Both the position numbers and the translations under genes were made by a program. A stretch of DNA of 64,000 bases from Psychrobacter sp. ANT_WB68 (GTDB taxonomy: Bacteria; Pseudomonadota; Gammaproteobacteria; Pseudomonadales; Moraxellaceae): NCBI RefSeq assembly GCF_008369115.1, contig NZ_VOAZ01000001.1, forward strand, positions 682,001 to 746,000, in the 5' to 3' direction. How positions within the stretch are numbered: the stretch's first letter is position 1; each line of letters begins with the position of its first letter. Below are positions 32,895 to 58,284 of this stretch, piece by piece. The notes below the pieces were generated by a model. The model saw nothing but the letters and a program-made list of their open reading frames with translations. It had not been told where the DNA came from and searched no databases.

Positions 32895-33842
32895 ATGAAA
32901 ACCGACACCAATAAACCATTAGCCTTTAGAAGATACCCTTCAACGACGGCGCTGCAATGTTTTGAGACCGCTGCCCGTCATTTGAGTTTTACCAATGCCG
33001 CGCAAGAGATGCACATGACCCAAAGCGCCATTAGTAAGCAAGTGGCGCAGTTAGAGGAGATGTTAAACCTGTCTTTATTTTATCGGACACCGCACCGGAT
33101 TTCGTTGACCCCTGCTGGCAAGGCATATTATCTTGAAGTTTTAGAGATTTTAAAACATATCGAGGTGGCGACCACCAATTTGATGTCACATAGCAGTAAT
33201 ACTGAGCTGCTAAAAATCGTCTCGCATCCGACATTTTGTGCTCGTTGGTTGATTCCAGCACTCAGTGGCTTTAGTCAAGAATACCCGCTTATCAACCTAG
33301 ATATCAAAGAATTAGTAGGTCCATTTTTTTCTGAAGACCAAAATGTCGATATTGCTTTTTTATATGGTGATGGAATGTGGAGCAATATGGAGGCCATAAA
33401 ATTATTCGATGAATATTGCGTTGCTGTTTGTCAGCCGCAGTATTTGCAAGATAAGACGCTGAGTACTGATTGTTTGGATGACTATGTGTTATTGCAAATA
33501 AGTTCGCGTTTAAGTGCGTGGTATGAGTACTTTAAGCAACAAGATATTAGCGTCGATGGCACCTTTGTAGGTCCACGCTTTGAGACTTTTCATGCCTGCA
33601 TTTCTGCCGCCTTACTTGGCTATGGCATTGCCTTGGTGCCGTTACGTTTGGTTGAGCCTGAGCTACAATCAGGCGCTTTAGTCATGGCGTGGGATTATGC
33701 GGCAAAGGGTCGCGGCAGCTATTATGTGACTTATCCTATCTCTTCAGGACAATCACATAAGGTCAAAGCAGTTTTAGAATGGATTACAGCTTATTTAGCA
33801 ATCTCAGATGAGCGTGAAAAGGCGTTAGGTCTGGTTTTATAA
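32895..33842 (+). CDS. LysR family regulator (GcvA-like)
   Basis: A 315-residue LysR-type regulator. The N-terminal winged helix reads TTALQCFETAARHLSFTNAA and then MHMTQSAISKQVAQLEE, with LFYRTPHRISLTPAGKAYY following. The effector-binding domain spans about 95-300. The domain layout is of the GcvA / AmpR branch, whose members often act on amino-acid genes. It is encoded 270 bases upstream of, and on the same strand as, the aminotransferase gene and is a candidate regulator of the pipecolate genes. A terminator separates it from them. Confidence 0.88.
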   Translation: MKTDTNKPLAFRRYPSTTALQCFETAARHLSFTNAAQEMHMTQSAISKQVAQLEEMLNLSLFYRTPHRISLTPAGKAYYLEVLEILKHIEVATTNLMSHSSNTELLKIVSHPTFCARWLIPALSGFSQEYPLINLDIKELVGPFFSEDQNVDIAFLYGDGMWSNMEAIKLFDEYCVAVCQPQYLQDKTLSTDCLDDYVLLQISSRLSAWYEYFKQQDISVDGTFVGPRFETFHACISAALLGYGIALVPLRLVEPELQSGALVMAWDYAAKGRGSYYVTYPISSGQSHKVKAVLEWITAYLAISDEREKALGLVL

Positions 33843-33945
33843 TGTCACTTACGTTTATTTATGATCTAAAGTATTTATCTATAGCACTGGTCTTGTGAAT
33901 TCCATCCTGTAATATTGTTTGCTGTAAACATTTAATAAGCTAAAC

Positions 33946-33976
33946 AAAAAAACTGCATTAATACGCAGTTTTTTTG
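33946..33976 (+). terminator. Terminator after the LysR gene
   Basis: AAAAAACTGC and GCAGTTTTTT form a 10-bp stem with a T-run, 104 bases after the LysR stop. Confidence 0.8.
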
Positions 33977-34112
33977 TTTTTAAAGGATTTGTTTAGGAAG
34001 TTAATTTACTGGTAATGACAAAAAGGAATGCCACCACAACTATTATTCGTTTGCTGCTGGAATAATGTTTTGTTGAAATGAGTCTAACTCAAGGAAGAGA
34101 TAGAGATTCATC

Positions 34113-35384
34113 ATGGACAAGCTTTATAACGTGACCGATGCCTTTACGATGGTGCATCCGCTCACGCTCATCAAAGGCAAAAATGCCAGAGTTTGGGACG
34201 ACAACGACCGCAGCTATATCGATTTTGTCGGCGGTATCGGTGTTTTAAACTTTGGTCATTGTCACCCTCACATCGTTGACGCCATCATTCATCAAGCCCA
34301 GTCGCTCATTCACTATGCCTACAATGCGGCAGCACATCAGCCGTACCAAACCTTTATGCCTCGATTGTGTGAGCTGGTGCCTATCAACGGCGAACTGGCA
34401 GGCATGCTGACTAACTGCGGTGCAGAAGCCACCGAAAATGCCATAAAAATCGCTCGTCTAAAGACAGGGCGCACAGGTGTCATTGCCTTTGATGGTGGCT
34501 TTCATGGGCGCACGCTGGCTGCCGTCAATCTCAATGGTAAGGTCGCGCCTTATAAGCGCGGGATCGGGCCTTTGGCAGGTGGCGTTTATCACATACCTTT
34601 CCCCAGTCCTGATAACAATATCAGCGACGAGCAAGCGATTGATGCGCTACAGCGTTTATTTATGGTAGAAACCGATATCGATAATATCGGTGCCATTATC
34701 GTCGAACCTGTACAAGGGGAGGGCGGTTTTCAATTGTTGTCGCCTACCTTTGCGCAATATCTACGTAAGTTTTGCGATAAGCATGGCATGTTACTTATCA
34801 TGGACGAAATCCAATCTGGCTATGGACGTACTGGCACGCCATTTGCTTTTACCCATTTAGGGATTGAGCCTGATCTTATTTTACTTGGCAAAAGCATCGC
34901 AGGTGGCTTGCCTTTAGGTGCGGTCATCGGAAAGGCTAGTGTGGTCAATGGTCTACCCAAAGGCAGCTTAGGCGGCACTTATTCGGGCAATCCAGTCGCC
35001 TGCGCCGCTGCCAATGCCACGCTCGATATCATGGAAGCTGATGACGTTTGGCAGTCAGCCAAACATTATGCAGAGACAATTCAGACGACCATCAGCCAAT
35101 GGCAACAAGAAGGTATCTCGCCTTGGTTGTTTGGTCTTACGGGTATCGGTGCGATGCGCGGTATCGAGCTGCGTCATCCTGAGCATGATGTGCATCCGAG
35201 TGTGATGGCGCAAGTATTAGTGCAAGCACGCGAACGTGGTCTACTGCTGATGCCAAGTGGGCAATATCGCCATATCATCCGCTTATTGCCACCTCTCACT
35301 ATAGAGCCTGACACCCTAAAAGAAGGGTTGGATATTCTAAAAGAGGTGCTCATCGGGCTTCCTGATGGGTTACCTGTCGCTTAA
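34113..35384 (+). CDS. Class-III aminotransferase, probable 2-aminoadipate aminotransferase
   Basis: The PLP-dependent fold-type-I enzyme resembles GabT. It has TNCGAEATENAIKIAR, FDGGFHGRTLAAV, LIMDEIQSGYGRTG and the Schiff-base lysine K260 in LLGKSIAGGLPLGA; length is 423 residues. By itself it would be annotated 4-aminobutyrate aminotransferase. Its position directly before the DUF1338 dioxygenase and the AmaB-type dehydrogenase argues instead that it converts L-2-aminoadipate to 2-oxoadipate, as reported for a GabT-family enzyme in Pseudomonas putida lysine catabolism. GGAAGAG precedes the start. Confidence 0.85.
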   Translation: MDKLYNVTDAFTMVHPLTLIKGKNARVWDDNDRSYIDFVGGIGVLNFGHCHPHIVDAIIHQAQSLIHYAYNAAAHQPYQTFMPRLCELVPINGELAGMLTNCGAEATENAIKIARLKTGRTGVIAFDGGFHGRTLAAVNLNGKVAPYKRGIGPLAGGVYHIPFPSPDNNISDEQAIDALQRLFMVETDIDNIGAIIVEPVQGEGGFQLLSPTFAQYLRKFCDKHGMLLIMDEIQSGYGRTGTPFAFTHLGIEPDLILLGKSIAGGLPLGAVIGKASVVNGLPKGSLGGTYSGNPVACAAANATLDIMEADDVWQSAKHYAETIQTTISQWQQEGISPWLFGLTGIGAMRGIELRHPEHDVHPSVMAQVLVQARERGLLLMPSGQYRHIIRLLPPLTIEPDTLKEGLDILKEVLIGLPDGLPVA

Positions 35385-35514
35385 TGCTTAGGCATGTTTA
35401 GGAATATTTAAGAGTACTTAGGACAGATAGCGCATCGTTATAACCAAATGCTCGAAATAAAATACTTATTATTAAGCTAAAAATTTATTAACTCTATTAC
35501 AAGGATGTTTATTT

Positions 35515-36984
35515 GTGAAAAATAATAGCGTCAGTCTAGATGAGGATTTTATCTGCAGCGATGATATACGTCATCATTTTTCTATGGCCATGTCAGCCAT
35601 GTACCAAAATGAGGTGCCGCTATACGGTGACTTGGTTGATTTGGTCAGTGATGTCAATGCAGAGGTGTTGACCTCACATCCCGATGTCAAATCACAACTG
35701 CTACATACGGGCGAGATTGAGCGTCTGAGCATGGAGCGCCACGGGGCGATTCGACTGGGTACCGCAGCAGAGCTGAGCATGATGCGCCGTCTCTTTGCGG
35801 TGATGGGTATGTACCCTGTTGGCTACTACGATTTAGCACCTGCTGGTGTGCCAGTCCACTCAACAGCCTTTCGTGCGCTTGACTCGCACGCATTGCATAA
35901 AAGTCCTTTTCGAGTATTTACCTCGTTATTGCGTTTAGATTTGATTGCCGATGAGACCTTACAACAAGAAGCCACGGCCACATTGGCGCAGCGTCAGATA
36001 TTCACTACTGAAGTTATTGAGCTAATTAAGATTTTCGAGGCGCAAGGTGGCTTGACCACTGAGCAAGCACAGCAGTTTGTCCAAGAAGCGCTAGAGACAT
36101 TTCGTTGGCATGATAAAACGCCGGTGGCAAAAGCGCTCTATCAGCGCTTACTAGATCAGCATCCACTTGTCGCTGATGTGGTCGGCTTTAAGGGCCCGCA
36201 TATCAATCATTTAACGCCTCGAACCTTGGATATTGATGCCGTACAATATGGTATGCAAGCCCGCGGCATACCCTCAAAAGCCATCATCGAAGGGCCACCG
36301 CGTAGAGCGTGTCCTATATTATTAAGGCAAACCAGTTTTAAGGCGCTACAAGAAGCGGTTGGCTTTAAAGTTGCTAATAACTTAGACGCTAGCCATGAAG
36401 AGTATGAGCAAGGGTATCATACCGCGCGCTTTGGAGAGATTGAGCAACGCGGTGTGGCATTAACGCAAAAGGGTCGCGCGCTTTATGATGAATTATTGGC
36501 TGCAGCTCGCCGCCAGCTTGGCGCTACCCCAAATGAGGATAATGCGGCTCAGTACAATCAAATTTTAGCCGAAGTATTTACCGCTTTTCCTGATAATTAT
36601 CAAACTCTACACGATGAAGGGCTGGCGTATTTTTATTACCAGTTGACGGATAGCACCCTAGATTCTGAAGATGGTCAAGCATTATTGGCCGCTACCTTAA
36701 CCAATGATGATTTGAATAAAGTGCCTAATGCTAAGCTGAGCGCTCTGATTAATGATGAGGTGCTTCGCATTGAACCTATCGTTTATGAGGATTTTTTGCC
36801 CGTCAGTGCCGCCGGTATCTTTCAATCAAACCTACAACAGGCGCAGCCAAACCAATATGACGGTCGCTCAAGCCAACAAAGTTTTGAGCGTGATTTGGGA
36901 GCAGCTATTCACGATGAGATGGCATTGTATGAAGCGATGCAAGCTCAAAGTCTTGAGCAGTGCCTGTCTAGTGTTAGTATCTAA
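35515..36984 (+). CDS. hglS: 2-oxoadipate dioxygenase/decarboxylase, HglS-type (DUF1338/YdcJ)
   Basis: HglS converts 2-oxoadipate to D-2-hydroxyglutarate with an Fe(II) centre in a vicinal-oxygen-chelate-like fold. The 489-residue frame carries family motifs ERHGAIRLGT (H76, probable metal ligand), GFKGPHINHLTPRTLDID (H232 region) and YHTARFGEIEQRGVALT (glutamate region), plus the Arg-rich RRACPILLRQTSFKAL. It starts with GTG, 10 bases after AAGGA; the nearby ATG at 35506 is out of frame. Co-location with the aminotransferase and AmaB-type dehydrogenase supports a lysine-derived 2-oxoadipate substrate. Confidence 0.85.
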   Translation: MKNNSVSLDEDFICSDDIRHHFSMAMSAMYQNEVPLYGDLVDLVSDVNAEVLTSHPDVKSQLLHTGEIERLSMERHGAIRLGTAAELSMMRRLFAVMGMYPVGYYDLAPAGVPVHSTAFRALDSHALHKSPFRVFTSLLRLDLIADETLQQEATATLAQRQIFTTEVIELIKIFEAQGGLTTEQAQQFVQEALETFRWHDKTPVAKALYQRLLDQHPLVADVVGFKGPHINHLTPRTLDIDAVQYGMQARGIPSKAIIEGPPRRACPILLRQTSFKALQEAVGFKVANNLDASHEEYEQGYHTARFGEIEQRGVALTQKGRALYDELLAAARRQLGATPNEDNAAQYNQILAEVFTAFPDNYQTLHDEGLAYFYYQLTDSTLDSEDGQALLAATLTNDDLNKVPNAKLSALINDEVLRIEPIVYEDFLPVSAAGIFQSNLQQAQPNQYDGRSSQQSFERDLGAAIHDEMALYEAMQAQSLEQCLSSVSI

Positions 36985-37029
36985 CAAATTATGCTAGAAA
37001 TGTCTAGCGTATAGCCGACTTATTAGCAC

Positions 37030-37050
37030 GTCATTCCAAAAAGGAATGAC
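37030..37050 (+). other. Short perfect hairpin
   Basis: GTCATTCC and GGAATGAC form an 8-bp stem around five A residues, 46 bases after the hglS stop. No T-run follows, so it may be a REP-like element or an mRNA-stabilising hairpin in the hglS-amaB gap. Confidence 0.45.
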
Positions 37051-37152
37051 TGCAAGAAATTTATTATTTTGCAACTTAGTAGGTAGCAGGGTAATTTTAT
37101 AAGTCAGTCAAGGACGTAGTAAACCATTATACCAATATGCAAGGGATTGATT

Positions 37153-38643
37153 ATGATTAAGCAATATATGTCTGCAATGGGCGTAGAAGAAGCACACTAT
37201 CAAAATGGCGACTTTGAAGTCACCACCCCAATTGATGGCTCAGTCATCGGTAAAGTCACATTAGATACAGTCGCCGACGTCGATACTAAAATCCAAAATG
37301 CCAAACAAGCTTTTCAAGAATGGCGTGTCGTTCCTGCCCCTAAACGTGGTGAGTTGATTCGTCTGTTGGGTGAAGTCCTGCGTGAGCACAAAGAAGATTT
37401 AGGTATCTTAGTATCATTAGAAGCCGGAAAAATCAAAGAAGAAGGCCTTGGCGAAGTCCAAGAAATGATTGATATCTGTGACTTTGCCGTGGGCGTATCG
37501 CGTCAGCTTTATGGTCTAACCATCGCCTCAGAACGCCCGGGTCACCACATGCGTGAGACATGGCATCCACTTGGTGTCATCGGCGTCATCTCTGCCTTTA
37601 ACTTCCCCGTCGCCGTTTGGTCTTGGAACACTGCGTTGGCCATCGTCTGTGGCAACCCTGTCATCTGGAAGCCTTCAGAAAAAACCCCGCTCGTCGCCTT
37701 AGCGTGCCAAGCATTATTTGAAAAAGCGTTGGCAAAATTTGGTGAGGCACCAGCACATTTATCGCAAATCATATTGGGCAAGACCGATATCGGTAATGCC
37801 TTGGTTGAAAATAAAGACATCGCTTTAGTCAGTGCCACCGGCAGTACACGCATGGGCCGAGAAGTAGGACCGAAAGTGGCTGAGCGTTTTGGTAAATGTT
37901 TGCTCGAGCTTGGTGGTAATAACGCCATGATTTTGGCACCCACTGCCGATTTAGATTTGGCGCTACGTGGCATTCTATTCTCAGCAGTAGGAACGGCAGG
38001 TCAGCGTTGCACCACCTTACGCCGTCTGTTTGTTCATGAGTCGGTCAAAGACGATATCTTACCGCGCGTTAAGTCTGCTTACGAGACGGTGAGCATCGGC
38101 CATCCGCTTGAAGGCAATTTGGTCGGTCCACTGATTGATGAAGACAGCTTTAATAACATGCAAGCGGCGTTAGAAAAGGCTCGTAAGACTGGCGGTAAAG
38201 TCACAGGCGGCGAACGAGTTCTGATGGATAAGTTCCCAGATGCTTATTATGTGACCCCTGCGATTGTTGAGCTTGATGAGCAAAATGACGTGGCACGTAG
38301 TGAGACGTTTGCACCGATTTTATATGTCATGCCCTATAAAGAGTTTGACGATGCACTAGCGATGCAAAACGATGTCCCACAAGGATTATCGTCTTGTATC
38401 TTTACCAATGACTTACGTGAAGCTGAAACTTTCCTCAGCGACCGCGGCAGTGATTGCGGTATCGCCAACGTCAACATCGGCACCAGTGGTGCTGAGATTG
38501 GCGGCGCATTCGGCGGCGAAAAAGAAACCGGCGGTGGTCGTGAATCAGGTTCAGACGCATGGAAAGCCTATATGCGTCGTCAGACCAATACGGTCAACTA
38601 CTCAACCGAGCTACCACTCGCGCAAGGCATCAACTTTGGCTAA
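37153..38643 (+). CDS. amaB: ALDH7-type dehydrogenase, probable piperideine-6-carboxylate dehydrogenase
   Basis: AmaB oxidises 2-aminoadipate semialdehyde (in equilibrium with piperideine-6-carboxylate) to L-2-aminoadipate. The protein belongs to the antiquitin (ALDH7) branch: LELGGNNAMI with general-base E252, and GTAGQRCTTLRRLF with nucleophile C286. The C-terminal NIGTSGAEIGGAFGGEKETG is also typical of ALDH7. The ATG at 37153 is chosen because AAGGGA lies six bases upstream; a TTG at 37147 is in frame. A strong terminator follows. Confidence 0.88.
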   Translation: MIKQYMSAMGVEEAHYQNGDFEVTTPIDGSVIGKVTLDTVADVDTKIQNAKQAFQEWRVVPAPKRGELIRLLGEVLREHKEDLGILVSLEAGKIKEEGLGEVQEMIDICDFAVGVSRQLYGLTIASERPGHHMRETWHPLGVIGVISAFNFPVAVWSWNTALAIVCGNPVIWKPSEKTPLVALACQALFEKALAKFGEAPAHLSQIILGKTDIGNALVENKDIALVSATGSTRMGREVGPKVAERFGKCLLELGGNNAMILAPTADLDLALRGILFSAVGTAGQRCTTLRRLFVHESVKDDILPRVKSAYETVSIGHPLEGNLVGPLIDEDSFNNMQAALEKARKTGGKVTGGERVLMDKFPDAYYVTPAIVELDEQNDVARSETFAPILYVMPYKEFDDALAMQNDVPQGLSSCIFTNDLREAETFLSDRGSDCGIANVNIGTSGAEIGGAFGGEKETGGGRESGSDAWKAYMRRQTNTVNYSTELPLAQGINFG

Positions 38644-38772
38644 TAACAACGGTATGTCACTAATAAATAGTGTCATTTAATAGTCTTTATCAATCACGTG
38701 TTGTGATGTTTGTTAAGTAGGCTCAGAGCCTATATTAACAAACCAATTATCAAGTATTTTTATTTTATTAAT

Positions 38773-38825
38773 AAAGCCTGCGGAAGTGATGAATAAATAT
38801 TCATGATTTCAAAAACAGGCTTTTT
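38773..38825 (+). terminator. Terminator after amaB
   Basis: A long stem pairs AAAGCCTG with CAGGCTTT at its base and GATGAATA with TATTCAT near its tip, with a T-run at the end. It separates amaB from the transporter gene, so the latter probably has its own promoter. Confidence 0.8.
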
Positions 38826-38863
38826 ATCCCCTTTTCAGCATTATCGGCAGCCATGGATTGGTT

Positions 38864-38905
38864 GTTTCCACTACTGTTATTTTTATGGCAGTAGTTTCCA
38901 CTACT
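38864..38905 (+). promoter_or_regulatory. Direct repeat in the leader of the NhaC-family gene
   Basis: GTTTCCACTACT occurs twice, at 38864-38875 and 38894-38905, with 30-bp periodicity. The second copy is also part of an AGTAG...CTACT dyad just before the AAGGAAGG ribosome site. It may be a regulator-binding or translational control site. Confidence 0.35.
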
Positions 38906-38923
38906 AAGGAAGGTAGGTGTCTT

Positions 38924-40390
38924 ATGATGGATAATAAACCTTATGACGAAGCTAAAGATGGCTATGGTCCGTCTTCTAGTTTTTTATTAGATATTGCACC
39001 TCTGGTGTTGACTGCCATTATTCTGATGGTTCAGTTTTTTGTATTCAAAGATTTTACCCCTCACATTCCTTTGGCTTGCGGTATTTTAATTACTGGCTTG
39101 TTTATGAAGCTGCGGCGCCGTGACTGGCATGGCATGGAAGAGAGTTTCTTAAAGGTCGTGAAAATCGGTCTACCTGCCATGATCATCTTGATGGGCGTTG
39201 GTATGCTCATCGGTGCTTGGATTATCGCTGGTACCGTTCCCACGATTTTATATTATGGCTTTAGCATTTTTTCTCCCTCGTCATTCCTAGTCTCTGTTTG
39301 TCTTATCTGTTCCATTATATCTGTCGCAACGGGTACCTCGTGGGGCACGGTCGGCACGGTCGGCCTTGCGATGATGGGTATTGGTTTAGGACTAGGTATT
39401 CCGCCGTCACTAACAGGCGGTGCTATTGTTTCTGGCGCTTTTTTTGGTGACAAAATGTCTCCATTATCTGACACCACCAACTTAACACCAGCCGCTGCCG
39501 GTGTTGACCTTTGGGAACACATTCGCGGTATGTTGCCCACCACGGTACCTGCCATGGTGACTGCCCTAATTATCTATGCTTGGATTGGGATGGGCTACGG
39601 CGCAGAAAATGTCGATTTAACATCAATCAGAGACATTCAAGCCTCACTAGCAGCTAACTATAACCTTAGTATTATTACTTTATTGCCTGCTGTTGTCGTT
39701 GTCATTGCGGCGGTGATGAAAATGCCAGCCATTCCAACGGTATTATCAGGTGTGGTGGTTGCAGGGTTAGTCGCTTTCTTTATGCAAGGTGTGGGCGTTC
39801 ACGATATCTTTAACGTCCTACAAAATGGCTTTGTCAGTAAGACTGGATTTGCTGTCGTTGACCAACTGCTGTCTAAAGGCGGTGTCATGTCGATGACATG
39901 GGTTGTGACCTTAACCATATTTGCCTTAGCATTCGTCGGTGCCATTGAGCATTACGGTACGCTCAAAGCCATCATGGCAAAAATCAATAAAATGGTGAAA
40001 TCGAGATTCGGTTTAGTGATTACCACTTATGCTAGCACGCTCGGTGTGGGTACCCTCATCGGTGACGTCTATACCACATTGGTGTTGCCAGGTCGCCTAC
40101 TCAAAGACAAGTATCAAGAGATGGGCTACAAGCGCACGACGCTTACCCGTTCTATCGAAGATACTGGCACCCTGTTATCTCCCCTTATTCCTTGGAACAT
40201 GGGCGGTAGTTTCGTCGCCGCAACCTTAGGTATTGCGACACTCACTTACGCGCCATTCGCTTTTGCTTGCTGGTTATCGCCTCTATTTGGTTTGTTATGG
40301 GTGGTCTTGAACAAATTTATCCCCCGCGAAGAACCTACTATTAATAAAGACACAAGCGAGCTTCCCACTGTAGACAATGTGTTAATTTAG
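38924..40390 (+). CDS. NhaC-family antiporter/transporter
   Basis: A polytopic inner-membrane protein of about 488 residues with roughly 11-12 hydrophobic segments. NhaC-family hallmarks are ATGTSWGTVGTVGLAMMGIG, GGAIVSGAFFGDKMSPLSD followed by TTNLTPAAAG, and SIEDTGTLLSPLIPWN. The ATG at 38924 follows AAGGAAGG; an upstream in-frame TTG would add 22 residues. NhaC proteins exchange Na+ for H+, and the family also contains amino-acid exchangers. Being 12 bases before the amaA-type oxidase, it may import lysine or pipecolate, but this is inferred from context. Confidence 0.85.
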   Translation: MMDNKPYDEAKDGYGPSSSFLLDIAPLVLTAIILMVQFFVFKDFTPHIPLACGILITGLFMKLRRRDWHGMEESFLKVVKIGLPAMIILMGVGMLIGAWIIAGTVPTILYYGFSIFSPSSFLVSVCLICSIISVATGTSWGTVGTVGLAMMGIGLGLGIPPSLTGGAIVSGAFFGDKMSPLSDTTNLTPAAAGVDLWEHIRGMLPTTVPAMVTALIIYAWIGMGYGAENVDLTSIRDIQASLAANYNLSIITLLPAVVVVIAAVMKMPAIPTVLSGVVVAGLVAFFMQGVGVHDIFNVLQNGFVSKTGFAVVDQLLSKGGVMSMTWVVTLTIFALAFVGAIEHYGTLKAIMAKINKMVKSRFGLVITTYASTLGVGTLIGDVYTTLVLPGRLLKDKYQEMGYKRTTLTRSIEDTGTLLSPLIPWNMGGSFVAATLGIATLTYAPFAFACWLSPLFGLLWVVLNKFIPREEPTINKDTSELPTVDNVLI

Positions 40391-40402
40391 AAGGAATATG
40401 AG

Positions 40403-41689
40403 ATGTTGCAAGAGCAATGTTTGTGGAATATGACCGCACCCCTTATCGATACCTACAGCCAGATGAGTAGCGATACTGAAGCGACTATCTGTATCATAGG
40501 CGGCGGTTATACAGGGTTATCGGCTGCGATTCATTTGGCTGAACAAGGCGTCAAAGTCATCCTCTTAGAGAGCCATACGATAGGCAGTGGTGGCTCTGGT
40601 AAAAGCGTAGGGCTCGTCAATGCAGGTACTTGGGCGCGCCCTGATGATTTGAATATTGCGCTAGGTGAAGCGGCAGGTGAGCGTTTAACTGAAGCCCTCG
40701 GACAAGCGCCAAGCTTAGTATTTGATTTAATCAAACGTTATAATATCGACGCCCAAGTCACTCAAGCCGGTAATATCCATATGGCACATAACGCTAAAGG
40801 TGAAGTCGATGTCGATATTAGATACGAGCAGCTTAGCCGTCGCGGTGCGAATATTGAGGTATTAACTGGCAGTAAATGCCATGAGTATTGTGGTACCAAG
40901 AATATCAATAAGGCACTACTCGATCATCGTGCTGGTACCATAAACCCGCTGGCTTATGTCAGAGGATTGGCCAAAGTAGCAAAAGATCTTGGCGTCACTA
41001 TCTATGAGCATTCCGCTGTTGAAGCCTTAGAAAAGGTGGATGGCTATTGGTATGCAAGGACTTCTAAAGCGCGCGTGAAATCTGAGCGCGTCATTATTGC
41101 AACCAACGCTTATACCGAAGGCGAATGGACAGAAATTAAAAAGACATTTTATCTGGTTTATTATTATCAGATTGCATCTGAGCCGCTCAGCGGAGAGGCG
41201 GCAGATCGGATTTTGCCATACAAAACAGGGGCATGGGATACACGCTTGGCCTTGTCTAGCTTTCGCCGTGATGACGATGATCGCCTATTATTGGGAACGG
41301 TGGGTGGTACACAGCTTAAACCAAAATCCTTTTATCAATCATGGGCCAATGCGGTGCAAAAAAGCTATTATCCAGATTTGCCAGCATTTAAGTGGCAGTA
41401 TGAATGGACTGGTAGCTTTGGCTTTACGCAAGATCATATTTTTCGAGTCATGGAGCCCGCTGAGGGCTTGCTGACAGCAACGGCTTATAACGGTCGCGGC
41501 ATTACGACAGGCACGCTAATGGGTAAGTGCTTTGCAGACTATATAATGACGGGTAATAGAGACAGTATCCCCTTACCATTTAAGACTTTAGAAGAGGCAA
41601 AAGTCTCTTTTGGAAGTATCAAGTCTGGCTTTACTGAGCTGGGACTGACTTTGTATCATGCAGGTCAATGCTTGAGAATCATTGGGTAG
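40403..41689 (+). CDS. amaA: DAO-family FAD oxidase, probable L-pipecolate oxidase
   Basis: The 428-residue flavoenzyme of the D-amino-acid-oxidase superfamily has the FAD motif IIGGGYTGLSAAIHLAEQG (residues 31-49), SGGSGKSVGLVNAG, and a C-terminal NGRGITTGTLMGKCFADY. P. putida AmaA, of the same superfamily, oxidises L-pipecolate to piperideine-6-carboxylate, the substrate of AmaB. Its presence in one island with AmaB-, aminotransferase- and HglS-like genes supports this role, though related enzymes oxidise gamma-glutamyl-putrescine or sarcosine. AGAAGGA precedes the start, and the transporter stop is 12 bases away. Confidence 0.78.
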   Translation: MLQEQCLWNMTAPLIDTYSQMSSDTEATICIIGGGYTGLSAAIHLAEQGVKVILLESHTIGSGGSGKSVGLVNAGTWARPDDLNIALGEAAGERLTEALGQAPSLVFDLIKRYNIDAQVTQAGNIHMAHNAKGEVDVDIRYEQLSRRGANIEVLTGSKCHEYCGTKNINKALLDHRAGTINPLAYVRGLAKVAKDLGVTIYEHSAVEALEKVDGYWYARTSKARVKSERVIIATNAYTEGEWTEIKKTFYLVYYYQIASEPLSGEAADRILPYKTGAWDTRLALSSFRRDDDDRLLLGTVGGTQLKPKSFYQSWANAVQKSYYPDLPAFKWQYEWTGSFGFTQDHIFRVMEPAEGLLTATAYNGRGITTGTLMGKCFADYIMTGNRDSIPLPFKTLEEAKVSFGSIKSGFTELGLTLYHAGQCLRIIG

Positions 41690-41743
41690 GAAAGTTGGGT
41701 AGGGAATAAGAACACGCCCTATTCTGAGAAGAATGCTGAACTT

Positions 41744-41779
41744 TGCCTAAACCGCTGAATAGGTTTAGGCAGTATTTTT
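41744..41779 (+). terminator. Terminator after amaA
   Basis: TGCCTAAACC and GGTTTAGGCA form a perfect 10-bp stem around 8 bases, followed by GTATTTTT. Confidence 0.85.
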
Positions 41780-41825: not shown

Positions 41826-42761
41826 TTAAATAAATTTGTTCTCATGAGTGGACAACACTTCTGCAAATAGCCAATCGCGAAAGGCTTTAAGCTTTGTCAT
41901 ATTGGCAGATTCCGCTTGATAAACGACGTAATAAGCCAGTGGCGAGCTAAAGGTAATCTCAGGAAATAATCGCATCAAACGTCCGGCAGCGACATCATCA
42001 TGTGCCATCACACTACGCGCCAACGCAACACCATGACCATTGATGACCGCTTGTAGCACCGCTGCTGAGTTATTGATTTGCATCCCTCGCGAGGTATCTA
42101 CTTTGGTGAGCGCTGCATTGGTTAAACTTGCTTGTGCAAGCCAATCATCCCACGAAGGAAAACCAATATAACCATCCACTGAGCGGTCATGAATGAGCGT
42201 TTCTTGGGTCAAATAAAGCGCGCTTTTTCCTTGTAATAATTGCGGCGAGCAAACCGGATAAATCTCCTCTTCCATCAGCTTTTCGCTCAGCAATCCTGCC
42301 CAAAAACCAGCACCATAGCGTACGCCGATATCCACGTCTTGAACGGCAAAGTCTATCGATTTGGCACTGGTATCAAGCCGTACATCGATATCTGGTTGTA
42401 GGCTTTGGAATCGATCGATACGCGGCAACAGCCATTTAGCGGCAAAGGCAGGGCTGACGGTCACCGTGAGCACGCCGCTATTTGATCCTGCTTGTAACTG
42501 CGCCAATCCTTTTGCCAAATTATCTAAGCCCGCCCGAATATGAGGCAATGCCAGCTCGACTGTTTTTGTGGGGATTAAGCGCGATTTACCACTGGTTTTG
42601 CGATAAAACAGCGGTAGTCCTACCGAATCCTCCAAACTACGAACCAGTTGTCCAACGGCAGCAGGAGTCACGTTTAGTTCCTCTGCTGCCGCAGAAAAAC
42701 TTTGATGACGGGCGCTCGCTTCCAAGGCACGTAGGGCATTTAAATACACAACTTTTTTCAT
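41826..42761 (-). CDS. LysR family regulator (GcvA-like)
   Basis: The 311-residue protein has the LysR helix-turn-helix (about 7-62: LRALEASARHQSFSAAAEEL, NVTPAAVGQLVRSLEDSVG) and a substrate-binding-like effector domain with CSPQLLQG and the long C-terminal loop. It is divergent from the cupin and amine-oxidase pair with a 106-bp shared promoter region that contains a dyad. Divergent arrangement is typical for LysR proteins and their targets, so it probably regulates that pair. Confidence 0.88.
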   Translation of the reverse strand: MKKVVYLNALRALEASARHQSFSAAAEELNVTPAAVGQLVRSLEDSVGLPLFYRKTSGKSRLIPTKTVELALPHIRAGLDNLAKGLAQLQAGSNSGVLTVTVSPAFAAKWLLPRIDRFQSLQPDIDVRLDTSAKSIDFAVQDVDIGVRYGAGFWAGLLSEKLMEEEIYPVCSPQLLQGKSALYLTQETLIHDRSVDGYIGFPSWDDWLAQASLTNAALTKVDTSRGMQINNSAAVLQAVINGHGVALARSVMAHDDVAAGRLMRLFPEITFSSPLAYYVVYQAESANMTKLKAFRDWLFAEVLSTHENKFI

Positions 42762-42781
42762 AGCGACAAATATTTTCTTTT

Positions 42782-42800
42782 AGATAAGTGAATATTATCT
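42782..42800. promoter_or_regulatory. Candidate LysR operator
   Basis: AGATAA and TTATCT form a 19-bp dyad between the divergent LysR gene and the cupin gene, the usual position for a LysR activator site. It is supported only by symmetry and position. Confidence 0.35.
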
Positions 42801-42867
42801 CGTTTGTCAGCCGATGTAAATCAGTTGATAATTGACGGTATTAAACCTTATCTTTGGAAAACATTCT

Positions 42868-43566
42868 ATGCTTATCAATGCAGATTTTACCCGCCGTGCT
42901 TTATTAGCGTCCGAAAACTATCAATGGGTGTCATCACCGCAAAATGGTGTTGAACGGGTCATGCTTGACCGTGTCGGCGCAGAAAAAGCCCGTGCCACCA
43001 GTATCGTGCGCTATGCCCCTGATTCTAATTTTCCACATCACTTGCACCCGGGCGGCGAAGAGATTTTGGTGTTGTCGGGTACTTTTTCGGCAGATAATAT
43101 CGATTATCCAGCGGGTTGGTACTTACGCAATCCGCCAAATTCTGGACACCAGCCGTATAGTAAAGAGGGCGCGGTCATTTTTGTCAAACTTTGGCAAATG
43201 CCAGCAGAAGAGGCACGTTATGTCGCCATCGATACCAACGATGCGGCAAATTGGCAGAAACAAGGTAATCGTGATGTTTGTCATTTATTTTCAGACGCCA
43301 GCGAACAGGTCAGCTTAAAGCGCTTAAATGCCAATGAGGCGCTATTTACCGGCACAGTTAGAGGCGGCGCAGAGATACTAGTGCTAGACGGCGAGTTAAT
43401 AGATGATGACATAATTGATAATGCTCAAACCTATACTCGCGGTAGCTGGATACGCTTACCAGTAGGTGCGCTGTCCAAAATAAAAGCAGGCGCGCAAGGT
43501 GTTACGGTTTATCTCAAAACCGGTCATTTGTCTCATGTCATCGGCGCTGATGTGGAAGGAGCATAA
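42868..43566 (+). CDS. ChrR-like double-cupin protein
   Basis: The 232-residue protein has a first cupin with HHLHPGGEEILVLSGTF, a metal-binding His/Glu pattern as in the ChrR anti-sigma cupin domain, followed by YPAGWYLRNPPNSGHQPYS. A second, weaker cupin half (about 140-230) reads GGAEILVLDGELI and ends in KAGAQGVTVYLKTGH. No N-terminal zinc anti-sigma domain is present, so it is not a full ChrR. The ATG at 42868 is preferred over an upstream start at 42832 for its GGA site. It is one base before the amine oxidase, so the two are coupled. Confidence 0.8.
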   Translation: MLINADFTRRALLASENYQWVSSPQNGVERVMLDRVGAEKARATSIVRYAPDSNFPHHLHPGGEEILVLSGTFSADNIDYPAGWYLRNPPNSGHQPYSKEGAVIFVKLWQMPAEEARYVAIDTNDAANWQKQGNRDVCHLFSDASEQVSLKRLNANEALFTGTVRGGAEILVLDGELIDDDIIDNAQTYTRGSWIRLPVGALSKIKAGAQGVTVYLKTGHLSHVIGADVEGA

Positions 43567-43567
43567 T

Positions 43568-44701
43568 ATGCAAACAGTATCTGTAGCGATTATTGGCGGC
43601 GGCTTAAGTGGCTTATATGCGGCTTATTTATTAGAGAAAAAAGGCGTTGATTATGTGCTCTTAGAGGCGCGTCCAACCTTGGGTGGTCGTATTGTGACAG
43701 TGCGGCCAACGGATTTAAATACTGCACAAATAACGGATAAAATGAATGGTTTTGATTTGGGACCATCATGGTTTTGGCCAGAATATCAGCAGCAGTTGGC
43801 GCGTTTGATTGATGAATTGCAATTAGAGAGTTTTGCGCAATTCGAGGAGGGCGATATGCTGGTTGAGCGCTCGCCTAATGAGTCTGCTATGCGTACACAT
43901 GGCTATAAAAGTGCGCCGCCGTCTATGCGGCTTAAGGGTGGTATGGCGACATTGATTGAAGCGCTTTATCAGCGTTTAGATGCCACGCGAATTTTGACCA
44001 ATCAAAAAGTGCATCAGTTGCATAATACTGGGCAGTATATTGAAATCACTAGCGAATATGAGTCTGGGCAAGTGGCTGTTTTTCAGAAACAGCAGTGGCA
44101 AGCGCAGCATGTACTACTCGCGCTGCCGCCTCGATTGGCAGAAAAAAGCATAACCTTTGAGCCAGCTTTACCCGCTAATATCACGACACAGTGGCGAGGA
44201 ACGGCTACTTGGATGGCGCCGCACGCTAAGTACCTTGCTGTTTATGACAGTCCGTTTTGGCAAGAACAAGGGTTGTCAGGCTCAGCACGCAGCGGACAAG
44301 GACCAATGGTTGAGATTCATGATGCATCGGTGGCAGATGGCAGCGGGGCATTATTTGGCTTTATAGGTGTACCTGCAGCCGCACGCCAAAGTGTCTCCGC
44401 AGAAGTATTGAAGGCGCATTGTCGTGCGCAACTGGTGCGTTTATTTGGGGAGCAAGCAGACTCGCCTAAGGCTGAGTATCTTAAAGATTGGGCGCAAGAG
44501 CCATTTACGGCAACCGCTACCGACGCTAATAGTGATGGTCAGCATGCCGCTGCACCTATGTCTAAAGCGCTATCTGGCGTATGGGAAAACAGTCTGACCG
44601 GTATTGGTAGCGAGTGGTCAGAACAGTTCCCCGGTTATATTGCGGGTGCTATCGATGCAGCAAGTATCGGCGTTAAAAATTTACCTGAGTTGATAGTATA
44701 G
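43568..44701 (+). CDS. Flavin-dependent amine oxidase family protein
   Basis: The 377-residue protein starts MQTVSVAIIGGGLSGLYAAY, the FAD dinucleotide motif, and continues YVLLEARPTLGGRIVTV, typical of monoamine-oxidase-like flavoenzymes. A C-terminal FAD-contact region reads LTGIGSEWSEQFPGYIAGAIDAAS. It is slightly shorter than most MAO-like enzymes (about 420-500). GGAGC lies before the chosen ATG; an in-frame ATG at 43499 overlaps the cupin gene. The substrate is unknown; the pairing with a cupin and a LysR regulator is its main clue. Confidence 0.85.
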   Translation: MQTVSVAIIGGGLSGLYAAYLLEKKGVDYVLLEARPTLGGRIVTVRPTDLNTAQITDKMNGFDLGPSWFWPEYQQQLARLIDELQLESFAQFEEGDMLVERSPNESAMRTHGYKSAPPSMRLKGGMATLIEALYQRLDATRILTNQKVHQLHNTGQYIEITSEYESGQVAVFQKQQWQAQHVLLALPPRLAEKSITFEPALPANITTQWRGTATWMAPHAKYLAVYDSPFWQEQGLSGSARSGQGPMVEIHDASVADGSGALFGFIGVPAAARQSVSAEVLKAHCRAQLVRLFGEQADSPKAEYLKDWAQEPFTATATDANSDGQHAAAPMSKALSGVWENSLTGIGSEWSEQFPGYIAGAIDAASIGVKNLPELIV

Positions 44702-45405: not shown

Positions 45406-45978
45406 ATGAAAACAGAAAATGCTTATAAACGTAAAAAACAGCCAGAAATCGTACGTCGTGCGCTGCTTGATCAGGCAGCACGCATCACGCTAGAGCAAGG
45501 GTTGTCTAAAGTTACCTTTCAAGCGGTGGCTGATGCAGTTGGCGTGACCAAAGGTGGGGTGATGCATCATTTCACTACCAAGAATGCTTTGATTTTGGAA
45601 GTATTCCATGACGCGATGAAAAAGTTTGAGACAGAGGTCGATACGGCGATGGCCAAAGACCCAGTGCCTTACGGTTCGTTTACCCGTGCCTACATCAATG
45701 CCACGATTAGCTTGGGCGAAAAAGGGCAGGAAGAGTTTGATAATCAAGCAACCTTATATGTATTGATGCTGGCGGACAGTGAGCTGCGCAAGCTGTGGGC
45801 TGAGTGGTCAAATGCGCAATTAGATAAGCATAAACCAACTGATAATACTGAAACGCTATGTATGGTGCGTCTGGTCGCTGATGGTATTTGGCTCTCTGAT
45901 TTTTCCGGCATTAATATATCCGATAAAAAATCATTACGTGAGCGTTTGCTAAAAATGACCCAACCTGAGCATGAGTAA
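45406..45978 (+). CDS. TetR/AcrR family regulator
   Basis: The 190-residue protein has a TetR helix-turn-helix at about 30-60 (ITLEQGLSKVTFQAVADAVG and VTKGGVMHHFTTKNALILE). The ligand-binding half contains LYVLMLADSELRKLWAEWSN and ends VRLVADGIWLSDFSGINISD. It occupies the position of betI in choline operons, 200 bases before betB, and so may respond to choline. Its sequence does not resemble the BetI pattern I know, so I do not give the name betI. Confidence 0.82.
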   Translation: MKTENAYKRKKQPEIVRRALLDQAARITLEQGLSKVTFQAVADAVGVTKGGVMHHFTTKNALILEVFHDAMKKFETEVDTAMAKDPVPYGSFTRAYINATISLGEKGQEEFDNQATLYVLMLADSELRKLWAEWSNAQLDKHKPTDNTETLCMVRLVADGIWLSDFSGINISDKKSLRERLLKMTQPEHE

Positions 45979-46178
45979 AACGCTAGTTTTCCTTTGATTC
46001 AAAAACAATGCTTTAAATGCGTCGCTTCAAGCGTTTATCAAAGAAATACTTAAAGAAACACTGAAAGAAAATATTTTAGAAATAGACGATATAAATTTTT
46101 TTAAATACTTAACCCATGACGACATTATTTGGTATTGGCTTTTGATAAAGCCTTTACCAGTCGTCGATAGGAGAACCT

Positions 46179-47705
46179 ATGACAGCTACAAATATTGATT
46201 CAAAAACAGAGCTGAACAACTTAAAAGACATCATCGATTTAGAGCAAATACAAACCGCTTATATCAACGGTCGTTATTTGGCTATCGATGAATCCTTAGC
46301 GATTTTTGAAGATATTAATCCAGCGACGGGTGAAGTGCTAGCAACCATTCAGCAAACAACTAATGAGCAGATTAATGAGGCGGTAAAAGCGGCGCAAAAA
46401 GGCCAAAAGGTTTGGGCGGCAATGACAGCGGTTGAGCGCAGTCGCATTTTATTAAACGCAGTTGCCATATTGCGCGAGCGTAATGATGTGCTGGCATTGC
46501 TCGAAACCAAAGATACGGGTAAAGCGCTCTCTGAAACCAAATATGTCGATATCGTCACCGGTGCTGATGTCGTTGAATATTATGCGGGTCTCGCACCAAT
46601 GCTTGAAGGTCGTCAGATTCCGCTACGTGATACTAGCTTTGTTTATACCCGTCGCGAGCCACTTGGCGTGGTCGCAGGTATTGGTGCATGGAATTATCCG
46701 ATTCAGATTGCGATGTGGAAGGCTGCACCGGCATTAGCCGCTGGGAATGCGATGATTTTCAAACCATCAGAAGTCACACCGTTAACGGCACTAAAATTGG
46801 CAGAAATCTTCACAGAAGCAGGCTTACCAGACGGCGTTTTTAACGTTGTGCAAGGGGATTATAAAGTCGGCGAAGCATTAACCCAGCATCCTGATATCGC
46901 TAAAGTATCGTTTACCGGTGGTGTACCAACGGGTAAAAAAGTCATGGCGAGTGCGGCATCATCGTCTCTTAAAGACGTGACCTTAGAGCTTGGTGGTAAG
47001 TCGCCACTGATTATATTTGATGATGCGGACATCGATACCGCCGCTGATATTGCGATGATGGCGAATTTCTATAGCACAGGTCAGGTCTGTACCAATGGCA
47101 CACGCGTCTTTATCCCGAAAGCCTTACAAGCCAAGTTTGAAGAAGCTATCTTAGCGCGTGTCAAGCGTATCAAGCTTGGCGATCCGATGGATGAAAATAT
47201 TAATATGGGTCCACTGGTTAGCTTCCCGCATATGGACAGAGTGCTTGGCTATATCCAGCAAGGAAAGGAGGGCGGCGCGCGTTTATTAACGGGTGGTGAA
47301 CGTATCACGACAGGCGAGCTTGCCAACGGTGCATTTGTCGCGCCGACCGTGTTTACAGATTGCAGCGATGATATGACTATCGTACGTGAGGAAATCTTTG
47401 GTCCAGTAATGTCAATATTGACGTATGAGACGGAAGAAGAGGTCATTCGCCGTGCCAATGATACCGAATACGGCTTGGCGGCAGGGGTCGTGACTACAGA
47501 CCTAACCCGCGCGCATCGCGTGATTGCGCAGATTGAAGCCGGTATTTGCTGGTTAAATACCTGGGGTGAGTCCGCAGCGCAAATGCCAGTTGGCGGTTAT
47601 AAACATTCAGGTATTGGCCGCGAAAATGGCATTGAAGCCCTTGAGCACTATACGCAGACTAAATCTATCCAAGTAGAGCTGGGTAAGTTTGAATCGGTAT
47701 TTTAA
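46179..47705 (+). CDS. betB: Betaine aldehyde dehydrogenase BetB
   Basis: BetB oxidises betaine aldehyde to glycine betaine with NAD(P)+. The 508-residue ALDH has [11 protein letters not shown] (general base E270), [15 protein letters not shown] (nucleophile C304) and [20 protein letters not shown]. Glycine-betaine ALDH type is supported by the adjacent choline dehydrogenase gene. The start follows AGGAGA. The head (about 20 residues) is longer than in E. coli BetB. It precedes betA by 116 bases and is probably co-transcribed. Confidence 0.92.
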
Positions 47706-47821
47706 TCAGTTGCATGGTAAGAGTTTTAAAACAGTAAGGTTGGCGTATTAGGAATAATTTGTCCTTTTACACCGCATTACTGATATCAAATGATGGATTT
47801 TTTAATATTATGGAGCGTTTT

Positions 47822-49522
47822 ATGACATCAACCACACCTGAATATGACTACATCATCGTTGGCGCAGGTTCAGCAGGAAATGTGCTGGCCACCCGCTTGA
47901 CCGAAGATGCCAACATTAAGGTGTTGCTGTTAGAGGCGGGTCGTCCGGACCATCGCTTAGACTTTCGCACACAGATGCCAGCGGCGCTCGCGATGCCGTT
48001 ACAAGGAACCACTTATAACTGGGGCTATAAAACCGATCCCGAGCCGTATATGAACAACCGTATTATGGACTGTGGTCGCGGCAAAGGACTGGGCGGCTCA
48101 TCACTGATTAATGGGATGTGCTATATCCGTGGCAATGCGTTGGATTTTGACGATTGGGCCAAAATCAAAGGTTTAGAAGACTGGACCTATTCAGACTGCC
48201 TACCGTATTTTAAAAAACTAGAAAATAGTGACGCTGGTGAGAACGACTATCATGGCGTCGGCGGTCCGGTTGAAATAACCACCTCCAAGCCAGGTGTCAA
48301 TCCGCTATTTGAAGCGATGATTGAAGCGGGCGTGCAAGCTGGCTATCCACGTACGGATGACCTAAACGGCTATCAGCAAGAAGGCTTTGGGCCAATGGAT
48401 CGTTTTGTGACGCCAAATGGTCGCCGCGCATCAACAGCGCGCGGTTATCTTGACCGTGCTAAACCGCGTAGCAATATCACCATTTTAACGGCTGCATTGA
48501 CTGATGTGATTTTGTTCGATAGCAAACGTGCTGTCGGCGTTAAAGTCGCACATCAAGGTCAAACCAAAAAATTCTATGCGTCTCGTGAAGTGATTGTATC
48601 TTCTGGCGCGATTGCCTCGCCGCAATTATTGCAACGCTCAGGCATTGGTCCTGGTCAATGGCTTAAAGATTTGGGAGTCAATGAGATTCTAGATTTACCA
48701 GGTGTCGGTAATAATCTACAAGACCATTTAGAGCTGTATATGCAGTATGAATGTAAGCTGCCGGTCTCGATTGCGCCCGCCAATAAATGGTGGAATAAGC
48801 CGGCGATTGGTGCTGAATGGCTATTTAATGGCACAGGGCTTGGCGCGTCAAATCAGTTCGAAGGCGGCGGCTTTATTCGTACCGATGAAAAGTTTACCCA
48901 TCCTAATATTCAGTATCATTTTCTACCGTTAGCAGTGCGTTACGATGGTCGCAGTGCGGTGAAATCTCATAGCTTCCAAGCACATGTGGGCTCATTGCGC
49001 TCGCCAAGTCGCGGTCGCGTCAAACTGACCTCGAAAGACCCAAGCGCGCATCCGAGTATCTTATTTAACTATATGTCGCATGAGCAGGACTGGCAAGAGT
49101 TCCGCGCCGCCATGCGTATCACCCGTGAGATTATGCATCAGCCAGCGCTTGACCCTTATCGTGGTCGCGCCATTGCGCCAACCGATGACTTGTTGACCGA
49201 TGCGCAGTTAGACGAGTATGTCCGTAACCATAGCGAAACGGCTTATCATCCGTCATGTACCTGTGCGATGGGCGAAGGCAATGATTCGGTAGTTGATGGA
49301 GAAGGGCTGGTACACGGTATCGATGGCTTGCGCGTCGTCGATGCATCGATTATGCCAAATATCATCAGTGGTAACCTGAACGCGACCACCATTATGCTCG
49401 CCGAAAAAATCGTCGATAAGATGCGCGGCATACAGCTACCACGCTCGACGGTAGATTATTACGTTGCAAATGGTGCACCGCTCAGAGCCGAGCCGATGCG
49501 CGTTTATAAATCTGTTGTTTAA
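47822..49522 (+). CDS. betA: Choline dehydrogenase BetA (GMC oxidoreductase)
   Basis: BetA oxidises choline to betaine aldehyde, and can take it on to glycine betaine. It is a membrane-associated FAD enzyme of the GMC family: [57 protein letters not shown], and the C-terminal catalytic [15 protein letters not shown] with [13 protein letters not shown]. The ATG at 47822 is preferred because GGAG lies eight bases upstream and it gives the usual BetA start; a TTG further upstream would add 21 residues. A terminator lies 78 bases after the stop. Confidence 0.95.
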
Positions 49523-49599
49523 AAGACTGTCTAAATGAGTGTCTAAACAACGGTATAAGCTATTGGACAATAAATAATATAAGACCATTTCAAGAAGAC

Positions 49600-49625
49600 G
49601 ACCTTTCACAGTAAAGGTCTTTTTT
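49600..49625 (+). terminator. Terminator after betA
   Basis: GACCTTT and AAAGGTC form a 7-bp perfect stem around 6 bases, followed by TTTTTT. Confidence 0.8.
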
Positions 49626-49840
49626 ATCAGCGCTTATGTTAAGCAGGTCGAGCCTTTAAGGCGGCCTCTGTTTAGCGTTTGCTTTGCTATGTTAATAACA
49701 GTTTATATATAGCAAATCTTATTTATTGGTACTGCTTTGTGCGTCATGCGGTGATACATATCTTATGTGACTATCAGTCATAAAGTTATGACGGACAAAG
49801 CAATATCAGACCCTGTTTAATTTACCTATTGAGGTCTTTT

Positions 49841-57945: not shown

Positions 57946-58284
57946 ATGATGATTCCGGGTGAATATCAATTAAAGAAAGGTGATATTGAACTGTGCGTAG
58001 GCCGCGACAGCTTTGTGATTGAGGTGGCCAATACGGGCGATCGTCCTATACAAGTCGGCTCTCATTATCACTTCGCTGAAACCAACAGCGCGCTGAGCTT
58101 TGATCGCAAAAAAGCGTATGGCCATCGCCTAGCTATTCCAGCCGGCACCGCCACGCGCTTTGAGCCGGGTCAAAAACGTGAGGTATCGTTACTGCCTTAT
58201 GCCGGATTGCGCCGCATCTTTGGCTTTAGAGGTGAGGTGATGGGTGCGCTAGATGACAACTCAGATTCAGGAGACATACGATGA
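57946..58284 (+). CDS. ureB: Urease beta subunit UreB
   Basis: The 112-residue beta subunit. It shows [34 protein letters not shown] and [27 protein letters not shown] precedes two adjacent ATGs; the first is used, the second (57949) is as likely. The last four bases overlap the ureC start (ATGA), indicating translational coupling. Confidence 0.96.

Follow-up and report, generated by a model that had tools for sequence, protein, structure and literature searches.

A very probable inducible operon for L-pipecolate catabolism in Psychrobacter, with its own LysR-type regulator and a candidate NhaC-type importer

The window analysed here, a stretch of 64,000 nucleotides from the cold-loving bacterium Psychrobacter sp. 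ANT_WB68 (contig NZ_VOAZ01000001.1, positions 682,001 to 746,000), carries six neighbouring genes that very probably form an inducible operon for the catabolism of L-pipecolate, a compound derived from lysine, as a source of energy, by a pathway known from Pseudomonas, with its own regulator and a candidate importer of the NhaC type. The genome (3.12 Mb in 11 contigs) belongs to a Psychrobacter close to P. immobilis, with whose 2-oxoadipate dioxygenase/decarboxylase (HglS) the window's protein shares 96-99% identity, these being the nearest relatives among the contigs searched. Below, G numbers denote genomes examined (G000 being the window's own) and L numbers named loci that were fetched. 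Six genes of one route had been predicted at 32895..41689, and all six open reading frames (ORFs) lie there, co-oriented on the + strand and separated by successive gaps of 270, 130, 162, 214, and 12 bp. The genes have not come together by chance, as this arrangement is found again throughout the genus and in Gallibacterium. The features are the following:

32895..33842, + strand: LysR-type regulator, with which the island opens (PF00126/PF03466; same place in relatives)
34018..34087, + strand: conserved 70-bp element before the aminotransferase gene, probably a LysR operator overlapped by a promoter (27 intergenic regions aligned)
34113..35384, + strand: 2-aminoadipate transaminase, class III, pyridoxal phosphate-dependent, with the Lys in GKSIAGGLP (NF049976)
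35515..36984, + strand: HglS, 2-oxoadipate dioxygenase/decarboxylase, DUF1338 (NF049974, PF07063)
37147..38643, + strand: ALDH7-type L-piperideine-6-carboxylate (aminoadipate semialdehyde) dehydrogenase, AmaB/Pcd type (NF050084)
38858..40390, + strand: NhaC-superfamily transporter, candidate L-pipecolate importer (TIGR00931)
40403..41689, + strand: AmaA-type L-pipecolate oxidase, dependent on flavin adenine dinucleotide (FAD) (NF050086)
41743..41772, + strand: probable intrinsic terminator closing the operon (11-pair stem, then TATTTTT)

An internal ATG is probably the true start of two of these genes (NhaC at about 38924, ALDH7 at 37153), and the terminator is a consensus match only, of which the region has 14 against 9.7 expected.

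Function-specific curated models (NCBIfam release 20.0, with the models' own cut-offs) bear out the predicted assignments of AmaA, an ALDH7-type AmaB, an aminotransferase, HglS, and NhaC, each of which exceeds its cut-off; the LysR protein passes the two Pfam models and no NCBIfam cut-off of a LysR name, the nearest being the GcvA subfamily (NF008352, 247.5 bits, under the cut-off of 288). The aminotransferase scores 723.8 bits with the 2-aminoadipate transaminase model NF049976 (cut-off 650), and a gamma-aminobutyrate (GABA) transaminase was rejected (TIGR00700, 405.3 bits, under the cut-off of 506.65). HglS reaches 700.7 bits with NF049974 (cut-off 550), also matches PF07063, and aligns over nearly its full length with the structure PDB 6w1g (516.6 bits). 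All six of its active-site residues (H76, R80, H232, E308, V430, and S431) are kept, the counterparts in 6w1g being His70, Arg74, His226, Glu294, Val402, and Ser403, among which we take His70, His226, and Glu294 to be the residues of the metal triad. The substrate arginine Arg74, the Val402/Ser403 loop, and a His-His-Glu metal triad have been described for HglS (PMC7286885, in part). The aldehyde dehydrogenase, predicted to be of ALDH7 type, is recognized as such by the L-piperideine-6-carboxylate dehydrogenase model NF050084 (825.1 bits, cut-off 730) and carries the Cys in GQRC and the Glu in LELGG; its best structures are 6dbb (713.3) and the Pcd semialdehyde dehydrogenase 6rtr (652.6), and an alpha-aminoadipic semialdehyde dehydrogenase structure (515.6) ranks behind these and 10fm. 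AmaA scores 692.8 bits with the L-pipecolate oxidase model NF050086 (cut-off 600), the sole match over that cut-off in the genome, and the next model gives 131.2 bits (best 25 of 52 model matches). Sarcosine oxidase (beta, 34.3 bits) and glycine oxidase (57.4 bits) were rejected for this DAO-family gene and a gamma-glutamyl-putrescine oxidase model is not among the best 25 of the 52 matches, as the prediction of a pipecolate oxidase would have it; solved structures of AmaA relatives are too distant to inform (best E 3.1e-9). The original prediction had thought it probable that automatic annotation would overlook the pathway; this is not so, since each of the four enzymes has its name in NCBIfam release 20.0. 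The enzyme identities are established at the family level, and the activities, the transport, and the regulation are what we infer.

In the proposed route, the NhaC-type carrier would import L-pipecolate, AmaA would oxidize it to delta1-piperideine-6-carboxylate, and the ALDH7 enzyme would convert the open-chain semialdehyde to L-2-aminoadipate, from which the aminotransferase would form 2-oxoadipate and HglS in turn D-2-hydroxyglutarate and CO2. A D-2-hydroxyglutarate dehydrogenase-like (D2HGDH-like) enzyme encoded elsewhere (G000:C3:613043-614434) would then yield 2-oxoglutarate for the tricarboxylic acid cycle, so that the island, first predicted to be probably complete, is nearly so, with its last step encoded elsewhere in the genome. 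The L-pipecolate/2-aminoadipate pathway of Pseudomonas (AmaA, AmaB, aminotransferase, HglS, YdiJ), known from P. putida, has the same four enzyme families in the same reaction order and a LysR gene nearby. The window differs in that its genes, those of the aminotransferase and the NhaC carrier among them, all run in one direction as a single block, whereas in the Pseudomonas loci L116, L117, and L144 AmaA-AmaB are divergent from LysR-HglS, with no aminotransferase match in the fetched stretch, which in L116 and L117 ends just past HglS.

A survey of 105 Psychrobacter genomes, in which AmaA was counted at E<=1e-100, found HglS in 51 and AmaA in 48, with HglS but no AmaA in three (G027, G068, and G094). 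HglS lies within 8 kb of AmaA on the same contig in 45 of the 48; the misses are G061 and G080, where contigs end, and G083, where the sole HglS belongs to a short-form cluster and does not share a contig with AmaA-NhaC. Of the 80 named loci that were fetched, 55 are from outside Psychrobacter, and 15 of these 55, two Pseudomonas loci included, have the aminotransferase at 50% identity or more; the inclusion of this gene in the cluster, which the original prediction had pointed out, is thus real but not special to this genome.

Several observations weigh against this explanation of the island. Outside the genus, AmaA at 50% identity or more occurs at 8 of the 55 loci and is accompanied by NhaC at no more than 4 of them. 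No aminotransferase gene stands between lysR and hglS in three genomes, namely G046 (loci L082 and L039), G055 (L038), and G098 (L055 and L080), all full-form loci, and another transaminase must serve there if the pathway works. Four of the window's genes are preceded by 130-270 bp of intergenic DNA, in which there is room for internal promoters, and the D2HGDH-like protein assigned to the last step passes no NCBIfam cut-off.

This D2HGDH-like oxidase is FAD-linked and follows AmaA within 331 bp in 13 of the 48 genus loci, the window's operon not being one of them, and a copy occurs somewhere in 102 of the 105 genomes (E<=1e-60). The only such match in the window's own genome is 95% identical to the query from the short form in G102; the top structure for this PF02913 protein is 3pm9, an unnamed oxidoreductase (316.5), followed by human D2HGDH 6lpn (261.6), the best structure that bears a specific enzyme name. 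In E. coli and Pantoea, YdiJ has been reported to be a D-2-hydroxyglutarate dehydrogenase (PMC9504171, in part). Unlike the Pseudomonas pathway with its YdiJ, the present genome has no protein of YdiJ length among its three PF02913 matches, while such proteins stand at the clusters of Acinetobacter L096 (1330.1) and Pelistega L093 (1349.3), just under the cut-off of 1350. Since two types of probable D-2-hydroxyglutarate dehydrogenase are thus found at such clusters, D-2-hydroxyglutarate as the product of HglS is supported.

Some Psychrobacter genomes and Oligella carry a short form of the cluster, LysR-aminotransferase-HglS-D2HGDH, which shares the regulator, the aminotransferase, HglS, and the operator (weaker in Oligella) with the full form, but lacks the pipecolate oxidase, ALDH7, and NhaC, has the D2HGDH-like gene at its end, and is usually accompanied by a symporter of the sodium:dicarboxylate family (SDF). 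HglS stands without AmaA within 8 kb at nine places in the genus, two of which are the contig-end cases (G061 and G080). At the other seven a D2HGDH-like gene is near, at 105-174 bp in six and at 2079 bp in G017, where, in the region L062:6058-8771, the gene is truncated at its front and separated from hglS by two ORFs, as if by insertion. The SDF-family symporter is beside LysR in six of the seven (L051, L056, L060, L062, L159, and L160), the seventh, G027, having only an HglS fragment and no LysR or aminotransferase match; in the stretches examined of 21 full-form Psychrobacter loci, no such symporter (>60% identity) was found. Oligella has the short form with the symporter, and Pelistega and Moraxella catarrhalis have both transporters. 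Both forms occur together in G017, G052, and G102, and G083 combines the short form with AmaA-NhaC on a separate contig. In the HglS tree, where L096 is labelled noPip solely for want of NhaC, the Psychrobacter short forms do not group together but take up two positions, with 8 of the 30 inner forks open and rows that are not independent. Our reading is that of a shared 2-aminoadipate core by which a pipecolate cassette (ALDH7, NhaC, and AmaA) would have been gained or lost, and on this reading NhaC is the likely pipecolate carrier and the SDF symporter the likely 2-aminoadipate carrier.

The carrier itself scores 447.3 bits with the NhaC model TIGR00931 (cut-off 370). At least 77% identical copies lie 15-174 bp from AmaA in 46 of the 48 Psychrobacter loci, and the two AmaA loci without an adjoining NhaC (G061 and G080) sit at contig ends. 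Because NhaC is missing from the short form together with ALDH7 and AmaA, it tracks the pipecolate half and becomes a candidate pipecolate importer. Outside the genus it occurs at 50% identity or more in 4 of the 55 loci (Gallibacterium twice, Pelistega, and M. catarrhalis), all with AmaA; the predicted association with an NhaC-type transporter is real but is a feature of a lineage comprising Psychrobacter, Gallibacterium, Pelistega, and Moraxella. The two Acinetobacter loci carry AmaA at 62-63% identity without NhaC, and at one, L096, a gene resembling a GABA permease is close by (614.2 bits, under the cut-off of 678.1). Other data count against a dedicated pipecolate carrier: five NhaC copies of 77-79% identity stand away from AmaA (G038, G039, G045, G047, and G056), and G039 and G047 lack AmaA altogether; the lone copy in the typed neighbourhood, L155, adjoins unrelated genes (a glutathione-transferase-like gene, a PepSY gene, and Pot polyamine ABC genes); stops fall inside 4 of the 46 linked matches (one each in G001, G083, and G085, nine in G075); and 2 of the 46 are shortened (G017 and G051). 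An IS4 transposase lies upstream of the lone copy in L154 and a second NhaC-family gene accompanies that in L156, and the neighbourhoods in L154, L155, and L156 give no hint of a substrate.

The copies that stand apart from AmaA would suit an ordinary Na+/H+ antiporter that serves ion balance and carries no amino acid, as would the protein's scores, which clear the NhaC antiporter model but fall short of the curated ArcD arginine/ornithine antiporter model (360.2 bits, cut-off 650). We nevertheless regard such an antiporter as unlikely, as the short form lacks the gene along with AmaA and ALDH7 and has an SDF-family symporter in its stead, and a role in ion balance would not obviously follow the pipecolate half. 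We know of no NhaC-superfamily member with L-pipecolate as its substrate, and a search of one literature collection returned no paper joining pipecolate, NhaC, and transporter. The evidence leaves us evenly poised on the fuller proposal, in which NhaC would be a dedicated, probably ion-coupled L-pipecolate importer, forming with ALDH7 and AmaA a cassette that enters and leaves a shared 2-aminoadipate core, the alternative form of which would import 2-aminoadipate through the SDF-family symporter.

Pipecolate could also be made in the cell from lysine, the island then being the lower half of lysine catabolism and NhaC a lysine importer. Pseudomonas uses these enzymes in D-lysine breakdown (PMC12930750, in part), and LysW, a riboswitch-linked candidate lysine transporter, belongs to the NhaC superfamily (PMC5584792, in part). 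The LysW candidates resemble the present case in that a carrier of this superfamily is tied to lysine-related metabolism, a likeness at the level of the superfamily, whereas here the link is to a pipecolate oxidase and no lysine riboswitch is found in the window at the Rfam gathering score. The genome's one ornithine-cyclodeaminase (OCD)-family protein could be a piperideine-2-carboxylate reductase, but scores 219.4 with that model, under the cut-off of 322; a reductase gene that does exceed it (396.6) lies in the short cluster of a Moraxella metagenome-assembled genome (L097:11373-12344), where it may feed in lysine. A DpkA-type PF02615 reductase is absent from the window's genome, the search not having extended to lysine racemase, AmaC/AmaD, or lysine transaminases. 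Since there is no DpkA of this family and the OCD protein stays below the cut-off, import is favoured over internal production; pipecolate is probably imported, and a supply from lysine seems to us doubtful.

As for regulation, alignment of 27 LysR-to-aminotransferase intergenic regions revealed in most Psychrobacter rows the core AAAAGGAATG-N6-CAACTATTATTCGTTTG, which differs by a few letters in L064, L065, L090, and L162, and by more in Oligella and two Gallibacterium rows. Of the 24 gap-free Psychrobacter rows, 11 served to derive a 70-bp matrix, which has a single site above 5 bits in the window, both strands counted, and the 33-bp core is unique in the genome at up to 3 mismatches. Among 18 other loci, Oligella reached 45.9, Gallibacterium 14.2 and 18.0, Pseudomonas L105 16.9, and Wohlfahrtiimonas L110 8.7, with nothing above 5 in L093, L094, L096, L097, and L098. 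Each of five short-form Psychrobacter loci scanned has one matrix site, none of them before the symporter, and an exact 17-bp half of the core occurs once in each of six such loci. A promoter is proposed within the element, with a -35 box TTGCTG (34051-34056), a 17-bp spacer, and a -10 box TGAAAT (34074-34079), which does not figure in the promoter-prediction list.

The simplest reading is that the element is probably a LysR operator with a LysR-activated promoter, common to both forms. Its position just ahead of the start codon would also suit an RNA switch or a leader peptide, and in L051 a frame is open into the aminotransferase, the ORF being similarly longer in L056, L159, and L160. Either seems very improbable, since the fold is no better than that of shuffled sequences (z -0.40), the frame is closed in the window and at other loci where the DNA letters are nonetheless kept, as we read the alignment, and the element is retained ahead of hglS in L055, which is without the aminotransferase gene. 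A riboswitch was also rejected for want of an Rfam match near the leader at the gathering score, and a leader peptide because its reading frame is not conserved in the intergenic alignment. In the operator reading, LysR would most likely activate from 34018-34087, and the inducer is probably 2-aminoadipate or 2-oxoadipate, because the steps common to the two forms are only those that lead from 2-aminoadipate to D-2-hydroxyglutarate.

Other genes of the window lie further downstream. The stretch 41826-44701 holds another LysR gene (- strand) facing genes for a ChrR-cupin-like protein and for a flavin amine oxidase, an arrangement seen among the 80 named loci only in L067, L069, L071, and L072. 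The genes at 45406-51886 (TetR regulator, aldehyde dehydrogenase, GMC oxidoreductase, and BCCT transporter) look like a choline-to-betaine set. On the - strand at 58431-58713 an Rfam 5_ureB_sRNA match is antisense to the ORF 58281-59984, which comes after a UreD gene and is probably urease, and the match may mirror conserved coding sequence.

A search of the same literature collection on Psychrobacter and "pipecol" returned no catabolic cluster, judged by title and the start of the abstract; one on pipecolate catabolism, transporter, and operon in Acinetobacter found nothing, nor did a broader search among the matches listed. In consulting earlier work it should be kept in mind that a figure legend in PMC6667623 (in part) has the names amaA and amaB swapped relative to present usage. 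Novelty lies in the conserved association with NhaC, in the contrast of the two operon forms, and in the operator, the pathway and its chemistry being already known. The full and the short operon form a natural contrast that would give a specific, testable substrate to a carrier from a superfamily usually labelled simply as Na+/H+ antiporters, and the same contrast would assign 2-aminoadipate to an SDF-family symporter. The compact six-gene module, with its candidate 2-aminoadipate-responsive promoter, could be taken up for work in a laboratory host. In plants, pipecolate can set off systemic acquired resistance, and bacteria often degrade it to 2-oxoadipate (PMC7286885, in part), so that it would be of ecological use to know which bacteria can import and consume it.

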